Part shown: positions 1-6,382 of the stretch, one piece after another
Layout: every line of letters begins with the position of its first letter
Numbering within the stretch: position 1 is the stretch's first letter
NCBI GenBank assembly: GCA_017550775.1
Contig: JAFZOA010000647.1
Location: forward strand, 1-6,382
Reading direction: 5' to 3'
DNA length: 6,382 nucleotides
Source: Ruminiclostridium sp.
GTDB lineage: Bacteria > Bacillota_A > Clostridia > Oscillospirales > Ruminococcaceae
Translations under genes and position numbers: made by a program
The notes under the pieces: model-generated
The model's database searches: none
Told to the model about the DNA's origin: nothing
The model's input: only the letters and a program-made list of their open reading frames with translations

Positions 1-1315
1 CACGAGGGAGCTCACCGAGTATATCTCCAACCGCATCAACAGCAGCGATATCGTGAAGGAGCAGCAGGATACCGAGGAGTACGACGTGTTCACCGGGCTT
101 CCGTTCAAGGGAACCGAGCCCGGCGACAAGGCGGAGGCTGACGCAAAAGCCGCTGCGGAGGAAAAGAAGCGCGAGATCGAAGAATTCCGCACACAGCTCA
201 CGGAGGCGGCTGAGCAGATGCGCGCCGCACAGGAGCAGCTTGCCCGGATGCAGGAGGCTTCCGGACAGATGCCGGATATGCAGGCGCTCATGGAGTCCAT
301 GTCCCCCGAGGAGCAGGCGGCTTTCGCACAGATGACCCCGGAGGAACAGCAAGCATTCATGATGTCCATGATGCCGGAGTCGGAAATGCCCGAGCTGCCG
401 GATATGTCGTCCATAATCGCAATGCTCCCCGAAGAGCAGCAGGAGCAGCTTTCCGGCATGACCCCCGAGGAGCAGATGTCCTTCCTCATGGAGCTCTCAG
501 GTGAGGGCGCGACCGGCTCTATGTCGGATATGTCGTATCTCGCGTCGGGGTTTGACCTCTCGGATTACGACTTCTCATCGTTCGATATGGAGAATATAAC
601 CGACGAGCAGATGTCGTTCTTCATGTCCATGACCGACGAGCAGCGCGCCGAACTCATGAAGCAGTTCGGAAGTATGTCGGTGGCATCCAACGTAGTTTCC
701 AACTCGTCGCAGTTTGAGAACCTCCGCACGCTCGGAGTTATAAGCATGGACACACCCTCGTCAATAGCGATCTATCCGCTCAACTTTGAGGCGAAAGAGC
801 GCATAGTGGAGATCATCGCGGACTACAACAGCCAGCGCAGCGAAAATGACCGGATCACCTATACCGACATCGTGGGTATGCTCATGTCGTCGGTAACGGA
901 TATCGTCAACGCCATAAGCTATATCCTGATAGCCTTTGTTGCTATCTCGCTCATAGTCTCGTCCATTATGATAGGTATCATCACCTATATCTCGGTGCTC
1001 GAACGCACGAAGGAGATCGGCATTCTCCGCTCTATCGGCGCGTCAAAGAAGGACATTTCCCGCGTGTTCAACGCCGAGACGATCATCATCGGTTTTATCG
1101 CCGGCGGTCTCGGAATAGGCGTGACGCTGCTGCTGCTGATACCGATAAACCTGATAATAGAGAACATCACCGATATTGTCGGTCTTGCCATACTCCCGCC
1201 GCTCGGAGGCGCGATACTGATAGCGATAAGCGTTATCCTCACGCTCATTGCGGGTCTGTTCCCGTCAAGCGTGGCGGCGAAGAAAGACCCGGTAGTCGCT
1301 CTCCGGACAGAATAG
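1..1315 (+). CDS. ABC transporter permease, MacB/FtsX-like, C-terminal part (5' end outside the window)
   Basis: The frame is open from base 2, so the start lies upstream; the GTG at 53 is only an internal Val codon. The visible 437 residues hold the end of a large extracytoplasmic domain and a typical FtsX/MacB C-terminal core. Numbering from the GTG, there is a charged coiled coil at about residues 25-70, a Met-rich repeat at 73-205, a small mixed domain at about 210-280, and three membrane segments at about 285-314, 343-369 and 378-404. The motif ERTKEIGILRSIGASKKDI (317-335) follows the first of these helices and is the family's cytoplasmic coupling loop; the end PVVALRTE is also typical. 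Such proteins use ATP to extrude peptides, drugs or lipoproteins, or act mechanically on envelope proteins. In Firmicutes the ATPase is often fused at the N-terminus, which cannot be checked here. The substrate is unknown. Family call firm, role open. Confidence 0.9.
   Translation, partial: TRELTEYISNRINSSDIVKEQQDTEEYDVFTGLPFKGTEPGDKAEADAKAAAEEKKREIEEFRTQLTEAAEQMRAAQEQLARMQEASGQMPDMQALMESMSPEEQAAFAQMTPEEQQAFMMSMMPESEMPELPDMSSIIAMLPEEQQEQLSGMTPEEQMSFLMELSGEGATGSMSDMSYLASGFDLSDYDFSSFDMENITDEQMSFFMSMTDEQRAELMKQFGSMSVASNVVSNSSQFENLRTLGVISMDTPSSIAIYPLNFEAKERIVEIIADYNSQRSENDRITYTDIVGMLMSSVTDIVNAISYILIAFVAISLIVSSIMIGIITYISVLERTKEIGILRSIGASKKDISRVFNAETIIIGFIAGGLGIGVTLLLLIPINLIIENITDIVGLAILPPLGGAILIAISVILTLIAGLFPSSVAAKKDPVVALRTE
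269..667 (+). repeat. Met-rich helical repeat coded within the ABC permease
   Basis: Six related motifs occur as three pairs, each pair exactly 11 residues apart: MSPEEQ/MTPEEQ at residues 83 and 94, LPEEQQ/MTPEEQ at 125 and 136, and ITDEQM/MTDEQR at 182 and 193 (numbered from the GTG at 53). A P/F-D-M motif precedes each pair (residues 74, 116, 177). I count 23 methionines in residues 73-208, about 17 percent. The pattern suggests short amphipathic helices each capped by S/T/L-P-E-E-Q. It lies in the extracytoplasmic part of the exporter, just after a predicted coiled coil. A role is not known; peptide binding or metal binding by Met side chains are guesses. Confidence 0.8.
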
Positions 1316-1331
1316 TTCCCACATAACAGCA

Positions 1332-1374
1332 ATTGACCGGCTGTGTATCGTTTACCGGCACACAACCGGTCAAT
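1332..1374 (+). promoter_or_regulatory. Imperfect 15-bp inverted repeat between the ABC gene and the mannanase gene
   Basis: Bases 1332-1346 pair with 1360-1374 with 14 of 15 positions complementary (C1341 opposite A1365 is the exception), around a 13-base loop. An alternative 5-bp hairpin, ACCGG 1354-1358 with CCGGT 1366-1370, would compete with it. No T-run follows on either strand, so it is not a standard intrinsic terminator. It begins 17 bases past the ABC stop codon. It could be an atypical transcript end for the ABC gene, an mRNA-stabilising hairpin, or an operator or leader structure for the mannanase gene. I cannot choose between these. Confidence 0.55.
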
Positions 1375-1381
1375 AACGTAC

Positions 1382-1395
1382 CCCGGAACACCGGG
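1382..1395 (+). promoter_or_regulatory. Small GC hairpin in the mannanase leader
   Basis: CCCGG (1382-1386) and CCGGG (1391-1395) form a perfect 5-bp stem around the loop AACA, ending 12 bases before the ribosome binding site of the mannanase. It could tune translation, or be chance in GC-rich DNA. Confidence 0.3.
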
Positions 1396-1407
1396 ACATG
1401 TAACAAC

Positions 1408-1414
1408 GGAGGAG
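1408..1414 (+). promoter_or_regulatory. Ribosome binding site fixing the mannanase start
   Basis: GGAGGAG matches the anti-Shine-Dalgarno sequence almost perfectly and puts its GGAGG core 5 bases before the ATG at 1418. This fixes the start there rather than at the in-frame GTG at 1343, which lies inside the upstream inverted repeat and would place a non-signal-like extension before the lipoprotein signal peptide. Confidence 0.9.
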
Positions 1415-1417
1415 AAC

Positions 1418-2455
1418 ATGGAAAAGATCAAGGTATTTGCCGCAGTCGTATTTGCGGTGCTGGCATTTGCAGGCTGCACCTCGGACAAGATACTTGACGA
1501 ACCCACCCCGGTCACCGCCGCAGTGGACGAGAAAGCGAAGGAGACCGCAGCCGCGTCGGGCGGATTTACCGTGAGCGGCTCGACCCTGCTGGACGCGAAC
1601 GGAAATGTGTTTATAATGCGCGGCATCAATCATGCACACACATGGTACAAGAACAAGGACGATACCGCGCTCGAAGCCATTGCCGCCACCGGCTCCAACT
1701 GCGTGCGGCTTGTGCTCGCAAACGGCATACAGTGGGAAAAGGACAGCCTTGAGAACATAAACAGGCTTACCGACAAGTGCCGCGAGCTTAAAATGGTCGC
1801 GATACTTGAAGTGCACGACGGTACCGGGAACGATGACCCGAAGGTGCTCGATGAGATAGCGGATTACTGGATAGAAATGAAGGACGCTCTGATAGGCAAA
1901 GAGAGCTATGTTATACTCAACATCGCCAACGAATGGTTCGGCTCATGGGGCAAAAACAAGCAGTGGGCGGACGCGTACATCGACGTTATCCCGAAGCTCC
2001 GCGACGCGGGCATAAAGAACACTGTCATGGTTGACGCGGCGGGCTGGGGACAGCTCGGAGAATGCATTGCGAGCGAGGGCAAGCGTATCCTCGCCTCCGA
2101 CACGCTCTCAAACACCATGTTCTCCGTCCATATGTACGGCACCGCGGGAGGCAGCAAGGCGTCAATCAAGAAGAACATCGACGGGGTGCTCGGCGAGGGG
2201 CTCTGCCTGTGCATCGGGGAGTTCGGCTATACCCACAGCGACGGCGACGTGAAGGAGGACTACCTCATGGAATACTGCGTTCAGACCGGGGTAGGCTATC
2301 TCGGTTGGTCATGGAAGGGCAACAGCGGCGGTGTGGAGTACCTCGATATCGCGAAGGAGTGGGACGGCTCGGTGCTCTCCGGCGACTGGGGAGAAGTGCT
2401 TGTGAACGGCGCAAACGGCATCAGAGAGACATCTGAGCAATGCACGGTATTCTGA
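1418..2455 (+). CDS. Beta-mannanase lipoprotein, glycoside hydrolase family 5 (subfamily 8 type)
   Basis: This 345-residue enzyme is predicted to cut internal beta-1,4-mannosidic bonds of mannan, glucomannan or galactomannan at the cell surface. A short signal peptide ends in a lipobox-like LAFAGC, making Cys20 the probable lipid anchor; about 28 residues of Ala/Glu/Thr-rich spacer follow. The catalytic barrel runs from about residue 49 to the C-terminus. Visible family residues are Arg97, His133, the acid/base Glu172 in NIANEWFG, His238 and Tyr240 in SVHMY, the nucleophile Glu268 in IGEFGY, and Trp299 in GWSWKGN. The stretches MRGINHAHTWY, DAAGWGQ and GWSWKGN match subfamily 8 mannanases of Bacillus as I remember them. 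No carbohydrate-binding module or dockerin is present. The catalytic domain has seven cysteines, many for an exported protein but less surprising in an anaerobe. A strong hairpin downstream suggests it is transcribed alone. Confidence 0.93.
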   Translation: MEKIKVFAAVVFAVLAFAGCTSDKILDEPTPVTAAVDEKAKETAAASGGFTVSGSTLLDANGNVFIMRGINHAHTWYKNKDDTALEAIAATGSNCVRLVLANGIQWEKDSLENINRLTDKCRELKMVAILEVHDGTGNDDPKVLDEIADYWIEMKDALIGKESYVILNIANEWFGSWGKNKQWADAYIDVIPKLRDAGIKNTVMVDAAGWGQLGECIASEGKRILASDTLSNTMFSVHMYGTAGGSKASIKKNIDGVLGEGLCLCIGEFGYTHSDGDVKEDYLMEYCVQTGVGYLGWSWKGNSGGVEYLDIAKEWDGSVLSGDWGEVLVNGANGIRETSEQCTVF

Positions 2456-2494
2456 TACTATAATCACATCAAACTATAGACAGGACAGATCAGC

Positions 2495-2529
2495 GTTTCT
2501 TCTCCCCGCCTCCGGCGTGGAGAAGAAAC
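2495..2529 (+). terminator. Hairpin terminator after the mannanase gene
   Basis: GTTTCTTCTCC (2495-2505) pairs perfectly with GGAGAAGAAAC (2519-2529), an 11-bp stem. After one mismatch it continues inward as CGCC/GGCG (2507-2510 with 2514-2517) around the loop TCC. It starts 39 bases after the stop codon. The downstream tail is only moderately T-rich (TGTCTTGTTGT from 2534). A second, outer stem can form between 2480-2487 and 2534-2541 with one G-U pair, which would consume that tail. Termination of the mannanase transcript is the simplest reading, and it would insulate the following operon. Confidence 0.65.
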
Positions 2530-2537
2530 AAAATGTC

Positions 2538-2572
2538 TTGTTGTCCGTTTATTGATTTGATATCAGTATAAG
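2538..2572 (+). promoter_or_regulatory. Possible weak promoter for the three-gene operon
   Basis: The 118 bases between the terminator hairpin and the TerB gene must hold a promoter if the operon is independent. The best -10-like match is TATAAG at 2567-2572, with TTGTCC at 2541-2546 too far away (20-base spacer). TTGTTG (2538-2543) and TATCAG (2561-2566) have a 17-base spacer but poor matches. An 8-bp palindrome TGATATCA (2558-2565) sits in the same place and could be an operator or chance. No assignment is convincing. Confidence 0.25.
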
Positions 2573-2595
2573 ACCGTAAGTGTGAAAGGCGGCAA

Positions 2596-2739
2596 ATGAA
2601 GGGAGAGAGGCTTTCTGAGCGACGCAAAGGACATAATATCCGATGTTATGAAGAATGTTTCGTTCTCGGGGAAGGTCTACAACGACGTTCCTCTGCTTCG
2701 GGTCGCCTCCGAGCTCCCGCAGCCCCCGAAACGAAATGA
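2596..2739 (+). other. Short overlapping reading frame (47 codons) in front of the TerB gene
   Basis: An ATG at 2596 has a well-placed AAAGG (2585-2589, 6-base spacing) and opens 47 codons that overlap the start of the TerB gene in another frame, ending at TGA 2737-2739. The peptide begins MKGERLSERRK and resembles no family I know. It may be a leader frame, a chance frame, or the true 5' end of the TerB gene separated from it by a single-base frame difference near the CTTT at 2611-2614. See the TerB entry for the competing start sites. Confidence 0.25.
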
Positions 2740-4150
2740 CGCGGTACCGGACAGGATACTCGAAATGAAAAGGCTCGTGTATTCACCTGAGTTTATCGGC
2801 AAGTCTTACACACAGGTCTTCTATGATCTCGGAAAGTTCATGGAGGACTTCGAGGACGACTGTCCCTACCCATTCGACATAGAGGTACAAAGACCCAGCT
2901 ACTCCTACATGACTGCCGAGCAGCTCCGCGGGTACTTCACATGGCGGACGGGCGTGCGCAGGGGCGAGTACAGACCCGCTCCGACAGTGTTCAGAATGCT
3001 GTATATGTACGAGCTTCTCAACCTTATCGGAGTGAAGAACGCGGAGGAAGCGTACCGGAAGATCCGTGAGGCGGAGCGTGAGTTCTCGTCCGACCCGGCT
3101 CTTTGCAGACTGATATCCGGCTGGATTAAGGATCTTGTCGTGTATTACGGGCTTCCGAAGGAGTACGCCTTCGAGCCGGATACCGGTACCGCCTCCGCAT
3201 TGAAAGACTACGCCGAAAGCACGGACAACGAGCTTTTCAAGGCTATGATGACGCAATCATACTACGATATCGGCGGCTCGTCATTCTATAAAGCATACCC
3301 CGACGACTTCCGCTTTACCGCCTGCACCGCGTACAGAAAGCTTGCCGCGCATTACGACAAGCACAACAAGCGCTCGCTGTTTGAGAAATACTTCGTGTAC
3401 AGCACAAGCTACAGAAAAAGTATGTTCACCGGAGCTGTGTTTCTTGACAAGCTTACCCAGACCCGCGTATATGACGCGGGTAACAACGAAAAGTACGAAT
3501 GCCGGAACGGAGAATGGTATTACACCAGACAATTGATAAACGCGTATGAAAGCCGCTCATTCGGCGACTTTATGAGATCGGTGGACTGTCTCATGCGAAA
3601 CCGTTTCCGGTTCAGGTTCAAAATGCGCAAATGCGAAGCCAATGACACGGAAAAGCGAATCATAGAGGAAAGCATTGACGAGCTCATGGAGCGAAAACGC
3701 CTCGCGAGCCTTCCGAAGATAGAGATCGACGTGGAAAAGCTCGGCAATATCAGAAAGTCCGCCGACTCGACCCGCGACAAGTTGATAGTAGACGAGGAAG
3801 CAGAGTCGGCTGACCCAGAGACACCGGTTCCGAAGGCATCGGTTTCGGAGACACCGGTGCCGGTGACACCCGCTCCCGAAACTCCTTCCGTAAGCGAAGA
3901 GCCGCCTGCTCGGCAGTCCGCCGACGACCACGGCGGCTTACCGCTGAACGACGAGGAATACGCGTTCCTGCACCGGTTGCTTTACGGCGGCACTGCTCCG
4001 ACCGGAGGGACTCTCCCGTCGCTGCTCGCGGACTCGGTGAACGAAAAGCTGTTTGATCTGTTCGGAGATACCGTGCTGGAGATCGGCGGCGGAGAGCCGT
4101 GCGTGATAGAAGATTACACGGACGAACTGAAAGGAATGATAAAGGAATGA
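2648..4150 (+). CDS. TerB_N/TerB_C domain protein, first gene of a Shango-like defence operon
   Basis: This protein of about 500 residues has a TerB_N-type N-terminal half, an acidic Pro/Thr-rich linker, and a TerB_C-type C-terminal domain. The TerB_N signature is the stretch from QLRGYFTWRTGVRRGEYRP (92-110) to LYMYELLNLIGV (118-129). The linker (about 380-430) holds three decapeptide units. The last 70 residues carry the TerB_C pattern VNEKLFDLFGDTVLEIG (464-480) and a final DYTDELKGMI. A basic aromatic patch, RNRFRFRFKMRK (317-328), may touch nucleic acid or membrane. There is no signal peptide or membrane helix. TerB-type domains are linked to envelope stress, metal resistance and DNA-processing operons; a TerB-domain protein is one of the three Shango components. 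The ATG at 2648 lacks a well-spaced ribosome binding site (AAAGGA is 16 bases away). The in-frame CTG at 2615 has AAGGGAG 9 bases ahead and would add SDAKDIISDV. The downstream ATPase gene overlaps by 4 bases. Confidence 0.85.
   Translation: MKNVSFSGKVYNDVPLLRVASELPQPPKRNDAVPDRILEMKRLVYSPEFIGKSYTQVFYDLGKFMEDFEDDCPYPFDIEVQRPSYSYMTAEQLRGYFTWRTGVRRGEYRPAPTVFRMLYMYELLNLIGVKNAEEAYRKIREAEREFSSDPALCRLISGWIKDLVVYYGLPKEYAFEPDTGTASALKDYAESTDNELFKAMMTQSYYDIGGSSFYKAYPDDFRFTACTAYRKLAAHYDKHNKRSLFEKYFVYSTSYRKSMFTGAVFLDKLTQTRVYDAGNNEKYECRNGEWYYTRQLINAYESRSFGDFMRSVDCLMRNRFRFRFKMRKCEANDTEKRIIEESIDELMERKRLASLPKIEIDVEKLGNIRKSADSTRDKLIVDEEAESADPETPVPKASVSETPVPVTPAPETPSVSEEPPARQSADDHGGLPLNDEEYAFLHRLLYGGTAPTGGTLPSLLADSVNEKLFDLFGDTVLEIGGGEPCVIEDYTDELKGMIKE
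3818..3907 (+). repeat. Three 30-base units coding a decapeptide linker repeat
   Basis: The linker reads ETPVPKASVS, ETPVPVTPAP, ETPSVSEEPP, a 10-residue period at residues 391-420 of the TerB protein. At DNA level GAGACACCGGT recurs exactly 30 bases apart (3818-3828 and 3848-3858); the third unit is diverged. Such in-frame tandem units form a flexible spacer and can change copy number by slippage without breaking the gene. Confidence 0.8.
4130..4135 (+). promoter_or_regulatory. Ribosome binding site of the ATPase gene inside the TerB gene
   Basis: AAAGGA lies 11 bases before the ATG at 4147, inside the last codons of the TerB gene. A second AAAGGA (4141-4146) abuts the ATG and is too close to act. 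The ATG overlaps the upstream stop as ATGA, so ribosomes ending on the TerB frame can restart at once. Confidence 0.7.
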
Positions 4151-5469
4151 AGATACCGAAGAGGATAGCCTCGGCGGTCATAAACTCACTGAAAGGCGGC
4201 GTTGTACCGCGCATAGGGCTCCCGTACATAACCGTCGGGCGCGAGACAGAGATAGACGCGCTGCTGCACGATGTTGAGATCATCGAGGACGGCGGTGCGT
4301 CCTTCCGCTTCATTGTCGGAAAGTACGGAAGCGGCAAGAGCTTCCTGCTCCAGACCATACGCAGCCACGTCATGGACAGAAATTTCGTGACCGTGGATGC
4401 CGACCTCTCGCCGGAGCGCCGGCTTCAGGGCACAAAGGGTCAGGGGCTCGCGACCTACAAGGAGCTTATCCGCAATATGTCCACCAAAACCTGTCCGGAC
4501 GGCGGCGCGCTCACGCTGATACTCGACCGCTGGATAAGCGGGGTGCAGTCCGAAACAGCGGCGGAAAGCGGACTGTCCCCGGACTCCCCGGAGTTTAAAG
4601 CCGCGGTGGAGAAGAAGATCTACTCGGTTATAAACTCGCTCAGCGAAATGGTACACGGCTTCGACTTCGCAAAGCTGCTCACGGTGTATTACCGCGCGAG
4701 CATAGACGGCAACGACGAGAGCAGAGCGAAGGCGGTCAAGTGGTTCCGCGGAGAGTACGCCTCAAAGACAGAGGCCAAGTCCGAGCTCGGCGTGAACATC
4801 ATCATTACCGACGACGACTGGTACGAGTACATTAAGCTGTTCGCCGCGTTCCTCGAAAAAGCGGGCTACAGCGGGCTTCTCGTACTTATCGACGAGCTTG
4901 TGAACATCTACAAGATTCCCAACGGGATCACCCGCCAGTACAACTACGAGAAGATACTCATGATGTACAACGACACGCTCCAGGGCAAGGCAAAGCACCT
5001 CGGCATCATCATGGGCGGCACGCCTCAGTGCATCGAGGACACCAGGCGCGGAGTATATAGCTATGAGGCTCTGCGCTCGCGGCTCGCGGAGGGGCGCTTC
5101 GGGCGCGAGGGCGTGAAGGATATGCTCGCGCCGGTGATACACCTCTCACCGCTTACCTACGAGGAAATGCTGGTTCTGACCGAGAAGCTTGCCAATATCC
5201 ACGCCCAGCTTTTCGGCTACGAGCAGAAGATCACACAGGACGACCTTATCGTGTTCATAAAGACCGAGTTCGGGCGGATAGGCGCGGACTCCCACATCAC
5301 CCCGCGCGAGGTCATACGCGACTTCATTGAGCTGCTGGACATAATATACCAGAATCCGGAGCTCGATATCTCCGGGTTCATATCGTCCGGCGGAATGACC
5401 TACTCCGACCCGTCCGGAAGCGACGATGACGACGGCGGAGAAGGCGGTTTTTCGGAGTTTGAGATATGA
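4147..5469 (+). CDS. P-loop ATPase of the BrxC/BrxD (DUF2791) family
   Basis: This 440-residue cytoplasmic AAA+-like ATPase is the second gene of the operon. The N-terminus reads MKIPKRIASAVINSLKGGVV and leads to RIGLPYITVGRETEID (22-37), typical of the family. Walker A is GKYGSGKS (58-65), Walker B is LLVLIDEL (244-251) with Asp249 and Glu250, and GIIMGGTPQ (286-294) sits where sensor 1 is expected. ALRSRL (308-313) may hold an arginine finger. ITPREVIRDFIELLDI (384-399) looks like the C-terminal lid or winged-helix part. The last 20 residues form a Gly/Asp/Glu tail ending in FSEFEI. Relatives include the BrxD ATP-binding protein, found beside the Lhr-like helicase BrxHI in type 2 BREX, and the ATPase of Shango. 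I infer that it loads or controls the helicase encoded next, using ATP. The start at 4147 is chosen from the family N-terminus and the ATGA overlap; an in-frame GTG at 4099 would only read the TerB_C codons out of phase. Confidence 0.92.
   Translation: MKIPKRIASAVINSLKGGVVPRIGLPYITVGRETEIDALLHDVEIIEDGGASFRFIVGKYGSGKSFLLQTIRSHVMDRNFVTVDADLSPERRLQGTKGQGLATYKELIRNMSTKTCPDGGALTLILDRWISGVQSETAAESGLSPDSPEFKAAVEKKIYSVINSLSEMVHGFDFAKLLTVYYRASIDGNDESRAKAVKWFRGEYASKTEAKSELGVNIIITDDDWYEYIKLFAAFLEKAGYSGLLVLIDELVNIYKIPNGITRQYNYEKILMMYNDTLQGKAKHLGIIMGGTPQCIEDTRRGVYSYEALRSRLAEGRFGREGVKDMLAPVIHLSPLTYEEMLVLTEKLANIHAQLFGYEQKITQDDLIVFIKTEFGRIGADSHITPREVIRDFIELLDIIYQNPELDISGFISSGGMTYSDPSGSDDDDGGEGGFSEFEI
5454..5457 (+). 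promoter_or_regulatory. Ribosome binding site of the helicase gene
   Basis: GGAG (5454-5457) lies 8 bases before the ATG at 5466, within the last codons of the ATPase gene. The start and the ATPase stop overlap as ATGA (5466-5469), the same junction type as the previous pair. Confidence 0.65.
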
Positions 5470-6382
5470 ATGTGTTTGACAGATACGCGCCGTTCGTGCA
5501 GGACTTTATTTACCGGAACAACTGGGAAAGCCTGCGCGCGATACAGGCGGCCGCCGGTGACGCGATCTTCGGGAGCGACGAGAATGTCCTACTCTCGGCA
5601 TCTACCGCGTCCGGCAAGACCGAGGCGGCGTTCTTCCCCATACTGACGCTGTTCTCGGAGGATATGCCGAGGTCGGTGGGGGCGCTGTACATAGGCCCCC
5701 TCAAAGCCCTGATAAACGACCAGTTCCAGCGTCTCAACGACCTTTGCGCCGAGGCGGGAATACCGGTCTGGCACTGGCACGGCGACGTTTCCCAGTCCCA
5801 CAAATCCCGGCTTATGAAGCACCCCTCCGGGATATTGCAGATCACCCCGGAATCGCTGGAAGCTATGCTGATGCGCAAGCACGCCGCGATAGGAAAGCTT
5901 TTCGGCGACCTGCGCTTCATCGTGATAGACGAGGTTCATTCCCTTATGCGCGGCGACAGGGGCGGCCAGACTCTCTGCCTTATCGAACGCCTGTCGAAGC
6001 TCGCGGGAGTAAACCCCCGCCGCATCGGGCTGTCCGCGACTATCGGCGACCTTGAGGCTGCGGGAGAGTTCCTTGCCGCGGGCTCCGGGAGAGGTACGAT
6101 CATACCGCGTATCGAAGCCAAGGGCGTTAAATGGCGGCTGTCCATGGAGCACTTCTATGTCTCGGATATACAGGCCGCCGAGGGCAAGGAGCCGCTCAAC
6201 GCGCTCCCGGTGCTCGAACAGGCGACCGATACCGCGCCGAAGTACGCCGACCCGGGAATGGGGTATATCTTTGAGCACACCAAGGGGAAGAAGTGCCTTG
6301 TATTCGTGAACTCCCGCGAGGAATGCGAAGCCGTGACCACAACTCTGCGCTCTTATTGCGAGGCCAACCACGAGCCGGACAG
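5466..6382 (+). CDS. Lhr-like superfamily 2 DEVH helicase, N-terminal part (3' end outside the window)
   Basis: The first 305 residues of a DEAD/DEAH-type helicase are visible, and the frame stays open to the window edge. Motifs in order are a Q-motif-like WESLRAIQAAAG (20-31), motif I STASGKTEAA (46-55) with Lys51 for ATP, motif Ia YIGPLKALINDQ (75-86), WHGDVSQSHK (104-113), motif Ib QITPESLEAML (125-135), motif II IDEVHSL (154-160) with Asp155 and Glu156, and motif III LSATIGD (189-195). From about residue 274, KGKKCLVFVNSREECE opens the second RecA-like domain. The layout matches Lhr-type DNA helicases, which translocate 3'-5' along DNA or on hybrids; in defence loci the close match is BrxHI or the Shango helicase. 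Full-length members are much longer, so most of RecA2 and any C-terminal domain lie beyond 6382. The gene is translationally coupled to the ATPase gene before it. Confidence 0.93.
   Translation, partial: MNVFDRYAPFVQDFIYRNNWESLRAIQAAAGDAIFGSDENVLLSASTASGKTEAAFFPILTLFSEDMPRSVGALYIGPLKALINDQFQRLNDLCAEAGIPVWHWHGDVSQSHKSRLMKHPSGILQITPESLEAMLMRKHAAIGKLFGDLRFIVIDEVHSLMRGDRGGQTLCLIERLSKLAGVNPRRIGLSATIGDLEAAGEFLAAGSGRGTIIPRIEAKGVKWRLSMEHFYVSDIQAAEGKEPLNALPVLEQATDTAPKYADPGMGYIFEHTKGKKCLVFVNSREECEAVTTTLRSYCEANHEPD

Follow-up and report, generated by a model that had tools for sequence, protein, structure and literature searches.

Shango has been described in Pseudomonas aeruginosa PA14 (PMC10250203) and in Escherichia coli as a system of three genes encoding a TerB-like protein, an ATPase and a helicase (SngA, SngB and SngC), and excerpts of that paper report phage protection by the Pseudomonas system and, through another paper that it cites, by E. 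coli versions (here and below, publications are represented by excerpts of their text). The same three kinds of gene occur in the stretch of DNA that we analyzed, hereafter the window, which comprises 6,382 nucleotides from Ruminiclostridium sp. (assembly GCA_017550775.1, contig JAFZOA010000647.1, positions 1 to 6,382, forward strand) and carries the beginning of a Shango operon, approximately three quarters of it: sngA and sngB in full, followed by 40% of sngC. Taking all of the evidence together, we consider it likely that this is the start of a Shango operon from a lineage with a soluble SngA that is devoid of the TerB core, the domain (PF05099) given for Shango in PMC10952713.

The operon host is a Ruminococcus/Ruminiclostridium-like member of the Clostridia, and the nearest proteins and loci came mostly from Ruminiclostridium/Ruminococcus-type metagenome-assembled genomes (MAGs), several of them from rumen and gut samples; Shango in rumen microbes has already been published (PMC13356809). 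Other Shango-related literature includes a paper that gives the Sulfitobacter SngA gene as 2544 bases (PMC10221251), along with PMC11096173, PMC10924106 and PMC12458937. The closest described system apart from Shango is type 2 bacteriophage exclusion (BREX), in which BrxD and BrxHI, an ATPase and a helicase of the same families as SngB and SngC, are likewise encoded by adjacent genes; this pair is described as tightly linked, with a possible helicase-loading role (PMC12839542), and SngC has been grouped with BrxHI, DruE and DpdJ (PMC12278908).

Operon identity and comparison with type 2 BREX

The initial annotation, made from the sequence before this analysis, had proposed three compact, overlapping genes of Shango type in a Clostridia genome. 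We confirmed three overlapping open reading frames (ORFs) on the forward strand, with starts at 2615 or 2648, 4147 and 5466, as well as the TerB_N and TerB_C domains, PF10923, the Walker A and B motifs and the DEVH box that it had named. The genes and the motifs of SngB and SngC are as follows:

2615–4150, forward strand: sngA, a TerB_N and TerB_C protein with TerB core and membrane anchor undetected (PADLOC SngA, Pfam, homologue N-termini, frame check)
4147–5469, forward strand: sngB, a BrxC/BrxD-family AAA+ ATPase of 440 amino acids (PADLOC SngB, 637.4 bits; PF10923, 574.3 bits)
4318–4341, forward strand: Walker A of SngB, GKYGSGKS (G[KR]YG[SA]GKS in 58/58 aligned proteins)
4879–4905, forward strand: Walker B of SngB, LVLIDELVN (DELVN in the six commonest variants, which make up 52/58 proteins; the count leaves aside the variants of the remaining 6/58)
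5466–6382, forward strand: sngC, a superfamily 2 helicase, N-terminal 305 residues (PADLOC SngC, 419.5 bits; next, BrxHI, 225.8 bits)
5595–5639, forward strand: helicase motif I (SASTASGKTEAAFFP), which contains SGKT (alignment with relatives)
5922–5945, forward strand: helicase motif II, VIDEVHSL (DEVH; alignment with relatives)

The three genes are adjacent and lie on the same strand in the order sngA-sngB-sngC, which is the order that defines Shango operationally and also that of the E. coli Shango loci, and both junctions are 4-base ATGA overlaps, which suggests translational coupling. Shango profiles were the best PADLOC match for each of the three proteins, with the scores listed above for SngB and SngC and 203 bits for SngA, where the match covered profile positions 66–527 of 528 and E. 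coli SngA scored 334 bits with the same profile. The initial annotation would have been refuted by a lack of matches to TerB_N, TerB_C or DUF2791, and all were found, the last as PF10923 (E = 1.9e-172 in SngB, from ATG 4147 to the end at 5469), which we take to be the former DUF2791. The part of SngC within the window, 305 of approximately 745 residues as judged from relatives, is interrupted by the window end and matched Pfam DEAD at E = 1e-28. Walker A, Walker B LIDEL, SGKT and DEVH are all kept in relatives, and helicase motif VI was present in all 57 aligned full-length SngC relatives. By sequence, the solved chains closest to the full-length SngC of the relative L001 were 5v9x, 7lhl and YprA; the first two are labeled "ATP-dependent DNA helicase" in the structure table and are, we presume, Lhr-type helicases, which fits the "Lhr-like helicase" proposed initially.

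Given that SngB and SngC belong to the families of BrxD and BrxHI, themselves a tightly linked pair in type 2 BREX (PMC12839542), the window could in principle hold the ATPase-helicase part of a type 2-like BREX locus rather than Shango, a reading that we regard as extremely improbable. BREX profiles scored far lower: SngB reached 637.4 bits with its Shango profile vs. 162.4 bits with PADLOC BrxD, its NCBIfam BrxD score was 163.7 bits against a cutoff of 350, and the full-length SngC of L001 scored 927 bits as SngC vs. 408.6 bits as BrxHI. SngA matched no BREX profile. The window also differs from type 2 BREX in having no methyltransferase, PglZ or PglW; PADLOC found none of pglX, pglZ, brxC and pglW among the three window proteins, and none of the four appeared in the 25 families covered of the 28 PADLOC families matched (E 1e-10) by 87 neighbor proteins of relatives. 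From their identity and architecture, the three genes almost certainly form a Shango operon.

SngA domain content and lineage

The domains recognized in the window SngA, together with a candidate module at its end, are:

2804–3274, forward strand: TerB_N, residues 53–209 of the 500-amino acid form (PF13208, 2.5e-19; mainly helical in the AlphaFold2 model)
3689–4132, forward strand: TerB_C, residues 348–495 of the 500-amino acid form (PF15615, 2.4e-17; a linker of low predicted local distance difference test score, pLDDT, lies inside)
3920–4147, forward strand: putative C-terminal winged-helix module of SngA, residues 436–511 of the 511-amino acid form

We compared this protein with 20 SngAs from other records (18 non-Bacillota and two Paenibacillus, several of the enterobacterial members being closely related), with 120 Bacillota-type proteins, and with the SngAs of 80 genome loci, the best 80 of at least 459 SngA relatives in a scan of genome contigs. 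Pfam detected TerB_N and TerB_C in all 20 proteins from other records, and 16 of them also matched the TerB core PF05099. Where its place was shown, in nine of ten proteins, the core lies between TerB_N and TerB_C. TerB_N and TerB_C were also present in 22/22 Bacillota-type SngAs, the window included, and PF05099 in 0/22 at E ≤ 1. A custom hidden Markov model (HMM), derived from the TerB regions of eight non-Bacillota SngAs and applied at E ≤ 1e-3, matched 18 of the 20 proteins from other records, ten of which were unused in building it, the two misses being the two Paenibacillus proteins; a TerB core was detected in all 18 non-Bacillota SngAs examined. The same HMM detected it in 0/120 Bacillota-type proteins, 0/80 locus SngAs (best E 0.29) and 0/2 Paenibacillus SngAs. 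In the window, 139 residues separate TerB_N from TerB_C, vs. 339 in the Pantoea protein L102. The "two-domain TerB protein" of the initial annotation reflects a real lineage difference, in that the TerB core of non-Bacillota SngA is undetected here.

A second difference concerns the N-terminal region. Scanning 19-residue segments for hydropathy of at least 1.6, we found that all non-Bacillota SngAs but that of Nonomuraea (17 of 18) have a hydrophobic segment ahead of TerB_N; E. coli, Salmonella and Pantoea SngA have one such segment, those of Aeromonas, Burkholderia and Teredinibacter have two, and that of Azospirillum sits in the open frame ahead of the annotated start. The Klebsiella SngA L093, outside this set, has one as well. 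The Pfam modules upstream of TerB_N were TM2 in a haloarchaeon, DUF805 in Rhizorhabdus, and PG_binding_1 in Methylobacterium and Mesorhizobium, where the segments beside it are weak (1.70–1.73). The window SngA has no transmembrane-like segment (maximum hydropathy 1.05), and no hydrophobic segment was found upstream of TerB_N in the 120 Bacillota-type proteins, the 80 loci (of which L031 and L078 start at a contig end, so that the N-terminus is cut, and L071 ends at one) or the two Paenibacillus proteins. Segments did occur in 2/80 loci and 11/120 proteins, all at residues 114–188, where TerB_N lies in the window, and none was N-terminal. The strength of these segments (1.65–1.81) overlaps that of the weakest non-Bacillota ones, and the hydropathy scan alone is therefore no proof of solubility.

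The suggestion that TerB serves as an "envelope link" did not hold for the window, whose SngA has no transmembrane-like segment; for Gram-negative SngA, such a link is plausible. Two alphaproteobacterial SngAs (L103:46-3489 and L111:107-3907) carry a peptidoglycan-binding domain ahead of the hydrophobic segment (identified by Pfam in L103 and L106/L111), and the upstream frame of L109 contains a similar-looking region. This arrangement hints that Gram-negative Shango may sense the envelope.

The comparison with described systems follows the same lines. E. coli SngA is 769–775 amino acids long and has an N-terminal hydrophobic segment and a TerB core, whereas the window SngA, at 500–511 amino acids, has neither (the comparison of size and domains rests on the E. 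coli proteins, with PA14 SngA outside it). SngAs from Gram-negative bacteria and archaea (Rhizorhabdus, Methylobacterium, Mesorhizobium and the haloarchaeon) resemble that of the window in having TerB_N and TerB_C and in lying beside SngB and SngC, but their N-terminal membrane or peptidoglycan-binding modules and TerB core were not found in the window. The plasmid-borne Shango loci of Paenibacillus (L081 and L082) are closer: their SngBs are 55% and 51% identical to that of the window and fall in its clade, and their SngAs likewise have no TerB core or hydrophobic segment, although that of L082 has an additional N-terminal stretch of approximately 600 amino acids with no Pfam match. Under a strict definition of Shango, in which SngA carries the PF05099 TerB core, the window lacks the defining domain, and it also lacks the hydrophobic segment upstream of TerB_N that characterizes the Gram-negative architecture. 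As far as domain searches can tell, Bacillota/Coriobacteriia SngA contains TerB_N and TerB_C only, and it looks like a soluble protein.

An SngB tree of 44 tips, left unrooted, grouped the window and both Paenibacillus proteins with 24 of the 80 loci in one clade with a support of 1.0; these 24 loci were picked for the tree and are mostly from Bacillota and Coriobacteriia, with some MAGs labeled otherwise (L050, L051 and L060). The tree fits assignment of the window to a Bacillota/Coriobacteriia subtype of Shango. Of the alternatives offered initially, a Clostridia version of Shango or a sister system, the first stands and "sister" is stronger than needed. Either loss in this lineage or gain elsewhere would account for the difference in TerB core and anchor.

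The start of sngA is probably CTG 2615 (511 amino acids) rather than ATG 2648 (2648–4150, 500 amino acids), which lies 11 codons further on and is the start used by ORF callers. This assignment draws on homologue N-termini, the limits of the frame and a purine-rich stretch, AGGGAGAGAGG, upstream of CTG 2615. The frame opens at 2600, and CTG 2615 and ATG 2648 are the only start-like codons up to the ATG; most of 22 aligned SngA homologues begin upstream of ATG 2648, several with M-(A/S)-D at the CTG position, which the SDAKDIISDV encoded ahead of the ATG resembles. In the relative L001, an ATG preceded by a purine-rich stretch occupies the same place as CTG 2615. At the other end of the protein, the candidate winged-helix module falls within a region that could be aligned with other SngAs by profile comparison, and the linker has pLDDT values mostly below 50 at residues 394–436 of the 511-amino acid form.

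SngA divergence and operon distribution

SngA is much the least conserved of the three proteins. Among the window and the 57 loci whose SngB and SngC were of sufficient length (the other 23 of the 80 were dropped, and the window SngC is partial), median pairwise identity was 0.374 for SngA, 0.755 for SngB and 0.767 for SngC, the median A/B distance ratio was 2.85, and SngA identity was below that of both SngB and SngC in 1653/1653 pairs, as well as in 29/29 non-overlapping pairs. Compared with its nearest relatives, the window shows 46–47% identity in SngA and 89–90% in SngB and SngC. In 46 locus pairs with at least three single-copy common neighbors, SngA was below the neighbor median in 41, while SngB was above it in 35 and SngC in 41; of 375 comparisons with syntenic neighbors overall, 289 showed SngA to be the less conserved. 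E. coli and plasmid Shango loci showed the same pattern, SngA being the most divergent protein in nearly all printed pairs (e.g., 0.52 vs. 0.84 for SngB and 0.71 for SngC between L084 and L085) and near-identical pairs being approximately equal for all three.

One reading of this divergence is that SngA is simply a weakly constrained scaffold that changes quickly with no phage pressure and no role in specificity, and we consider this a real possibility, although not the better bet. The ratio of nonsynonymous to synonymous divergence (dN/dS) was below 1 throughout, with values of 0.05–0.30 for SngA in 10 of the 12 pairs (those with finite dS), and the linker, where model confidence is low, is the least conserved part of the protein. 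Relaxed constraint fits less well with the comparison to syntenic neighbors given above, in which SngB and SngC were mostly above the neighbor median, or with the pair L008 and L010. In this pair, dS was 0.84 for SngA vs. 0.18 for SngB and 0.12 for SngC (approximately 5 and 7 times higher), so constraint at the protein level alone is no explanation. The surrounding blocks are 93.5% (the block that includes sngA) and 96.6% identical, with another, 79% identical, approximately 3 kilobases (kb) beyond sngC, and the divergence of sngA is concentrated in roughly its first two thirds to three quarters. This stretch looks as though it had been replaced by another allele, the only clear case of replacement among the 12 pairs examined.

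We also considered a chromosomal housekeeping operon, for example one for DNA repair or replication restart, that merely resembles a defense system. In the neighbor scan, which covered 87 of 187 listed neighbor proteins, mostly the innermost, the 25 Pfam families covered, of 93, were metabolic and regulatory, and the 25 PADLOC families covered, of 28 at 1e-10, were all models matched by only one or two members each, mostly ThiF-like E1-E2; the Clostridia operon thus usually stands apart from known defense genes. In addition, several R. flavefaciens-like genomes share gene neighborhoods, and SngB and SngC are under strong purifying selection. All of this would suit a housekeeping role. Distribution within genera is patchy, however, with SngA in 14/71 genomes of one genus and SngA and SngB matching the same 48/120 genomes of another (lists compared by eye), although the completeness of these genomes is unstated and the absences are upper bounds. 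The operon also occurs on plasmids of many other bacteria, and SngA changes rapidly, with one apparent allele replacement. On balance, we judge the housekeeping explanation unlikely.

Within the 80 loci, SngB is encoded by the next gene after SngA in 76, and SngC was found in 66, two genes after SngA in 52 of these. Eight of the 14 loci without SngC are cut off by the end of the contig at or just past SngA or SngB; in the other six (L009, L027, L041, L043, L073 and L074), tblastn with a full-length SngC query detected no SngC. In L027, L041, L043, L073 and L074, an sngA-sngB pair is followed by 1.6–8.7 kb of sequence without sngC, while L009 and L100 (apparently the same locus) and L099 contain SngA-like genes without SngB or SngC alongside; the genome of L100 (G102) carries SngB on another contig. 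At a contig end, L097:1-462 repeats almost exactly a unit of approximately 80 residues from the SngA C-terminal region with its conserved end, which may be a real duplication or an assembly artefact.

In a plasmid collection, SngA relatives were present in 677 records, 450 from Klebsiella and 144 from Salmonella, and 541 were predicted to be conjugative. Some E. coli Shango loci adjoin AbiE-type genes or integrases, and two (L087 and L089) have insertion sequences inside or adjoining them; by annotation, SngA is split in L087, and SngB is shortened and SngA missing in L089. Upstream of sngA in the window are a gene for an ATP-binding cassette permease with an FtsX domain (2–1315), the upstream part of which is unusual in composition, with abundant Met, Glu and Gln, and one for a GH5 cellulase with a lipoprotein-like signal (1343–2455), as expected of a fiber-degrading gut bacterium. 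An 11-base inverted repeat (2495–2505/2519–2529, read by eye), not followed by a T run, lies between the cellulase gene and sngA.

Proposed mechanism and significance

As a whole, the mechanism that we propose, in which SngB and SngC form an engine and SngA provides the trigger or specificity, is tentative. SngB, a BrxD-type ATPase, would load or activate the SngC helicase on invading DNA, a role as loader or switch that is put forward because it has been suggested for BrxD and BrxHI (PMC12839542). SngA would use its C-terminal part to dock on this engine, and the trigger or specificity that decides when or where the engine acts would come from the N-terminal and middle parts of SngA, which are variable. 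The complex may then block phage DNA replication, which would be the likely target since no nuclease was recognized in SngA, SngB or SngC of the window. If the anchorless SngA is really soluble, the trigger would be cytoplasmic.

A bolder version, which we offer as speculation and think rather improbable, is that Shango in Bacillota forms a cytosolic subtype of its own, whose SngA is an exchangeable specificity subunit, by analogy with the HsdS logic of type I restriction systems. The loader-helicase formed by SngB and SngC would then stay fixed and be redirected by fast replacement of the N-terminal and middle parts of SngA while the TerB_C part keeps the docking site, and Gram-negative bacteria and archaea would have fitted the same slot with envelope-sensing modules.

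Word searches of the open-access literature (titles, abstract openings and passages) returned no description of a TerB-less or soluble Shango, and no phage test of the Bacillota/Coriobacteriia lineage was found in the excerpts covered; this lineage variant appears to be undescribed. Shango is described through its TerB-like protein, yet a lineage that is well represented among Clostridia MAGs from rumen and gut seems to manage without the TerB core and the anchor. Should this lineage still block phage, the basic mechanism would require neither, and the core to study would be SngB and SngC together with the C-terminal part of SngA, which is conserved. Whether Shango senses at the envelope or on DNA could be tested directly by contrasting tethered with soluble SngA, and SngA, as the fast-diverging subunit, is the one to swap in such tests.

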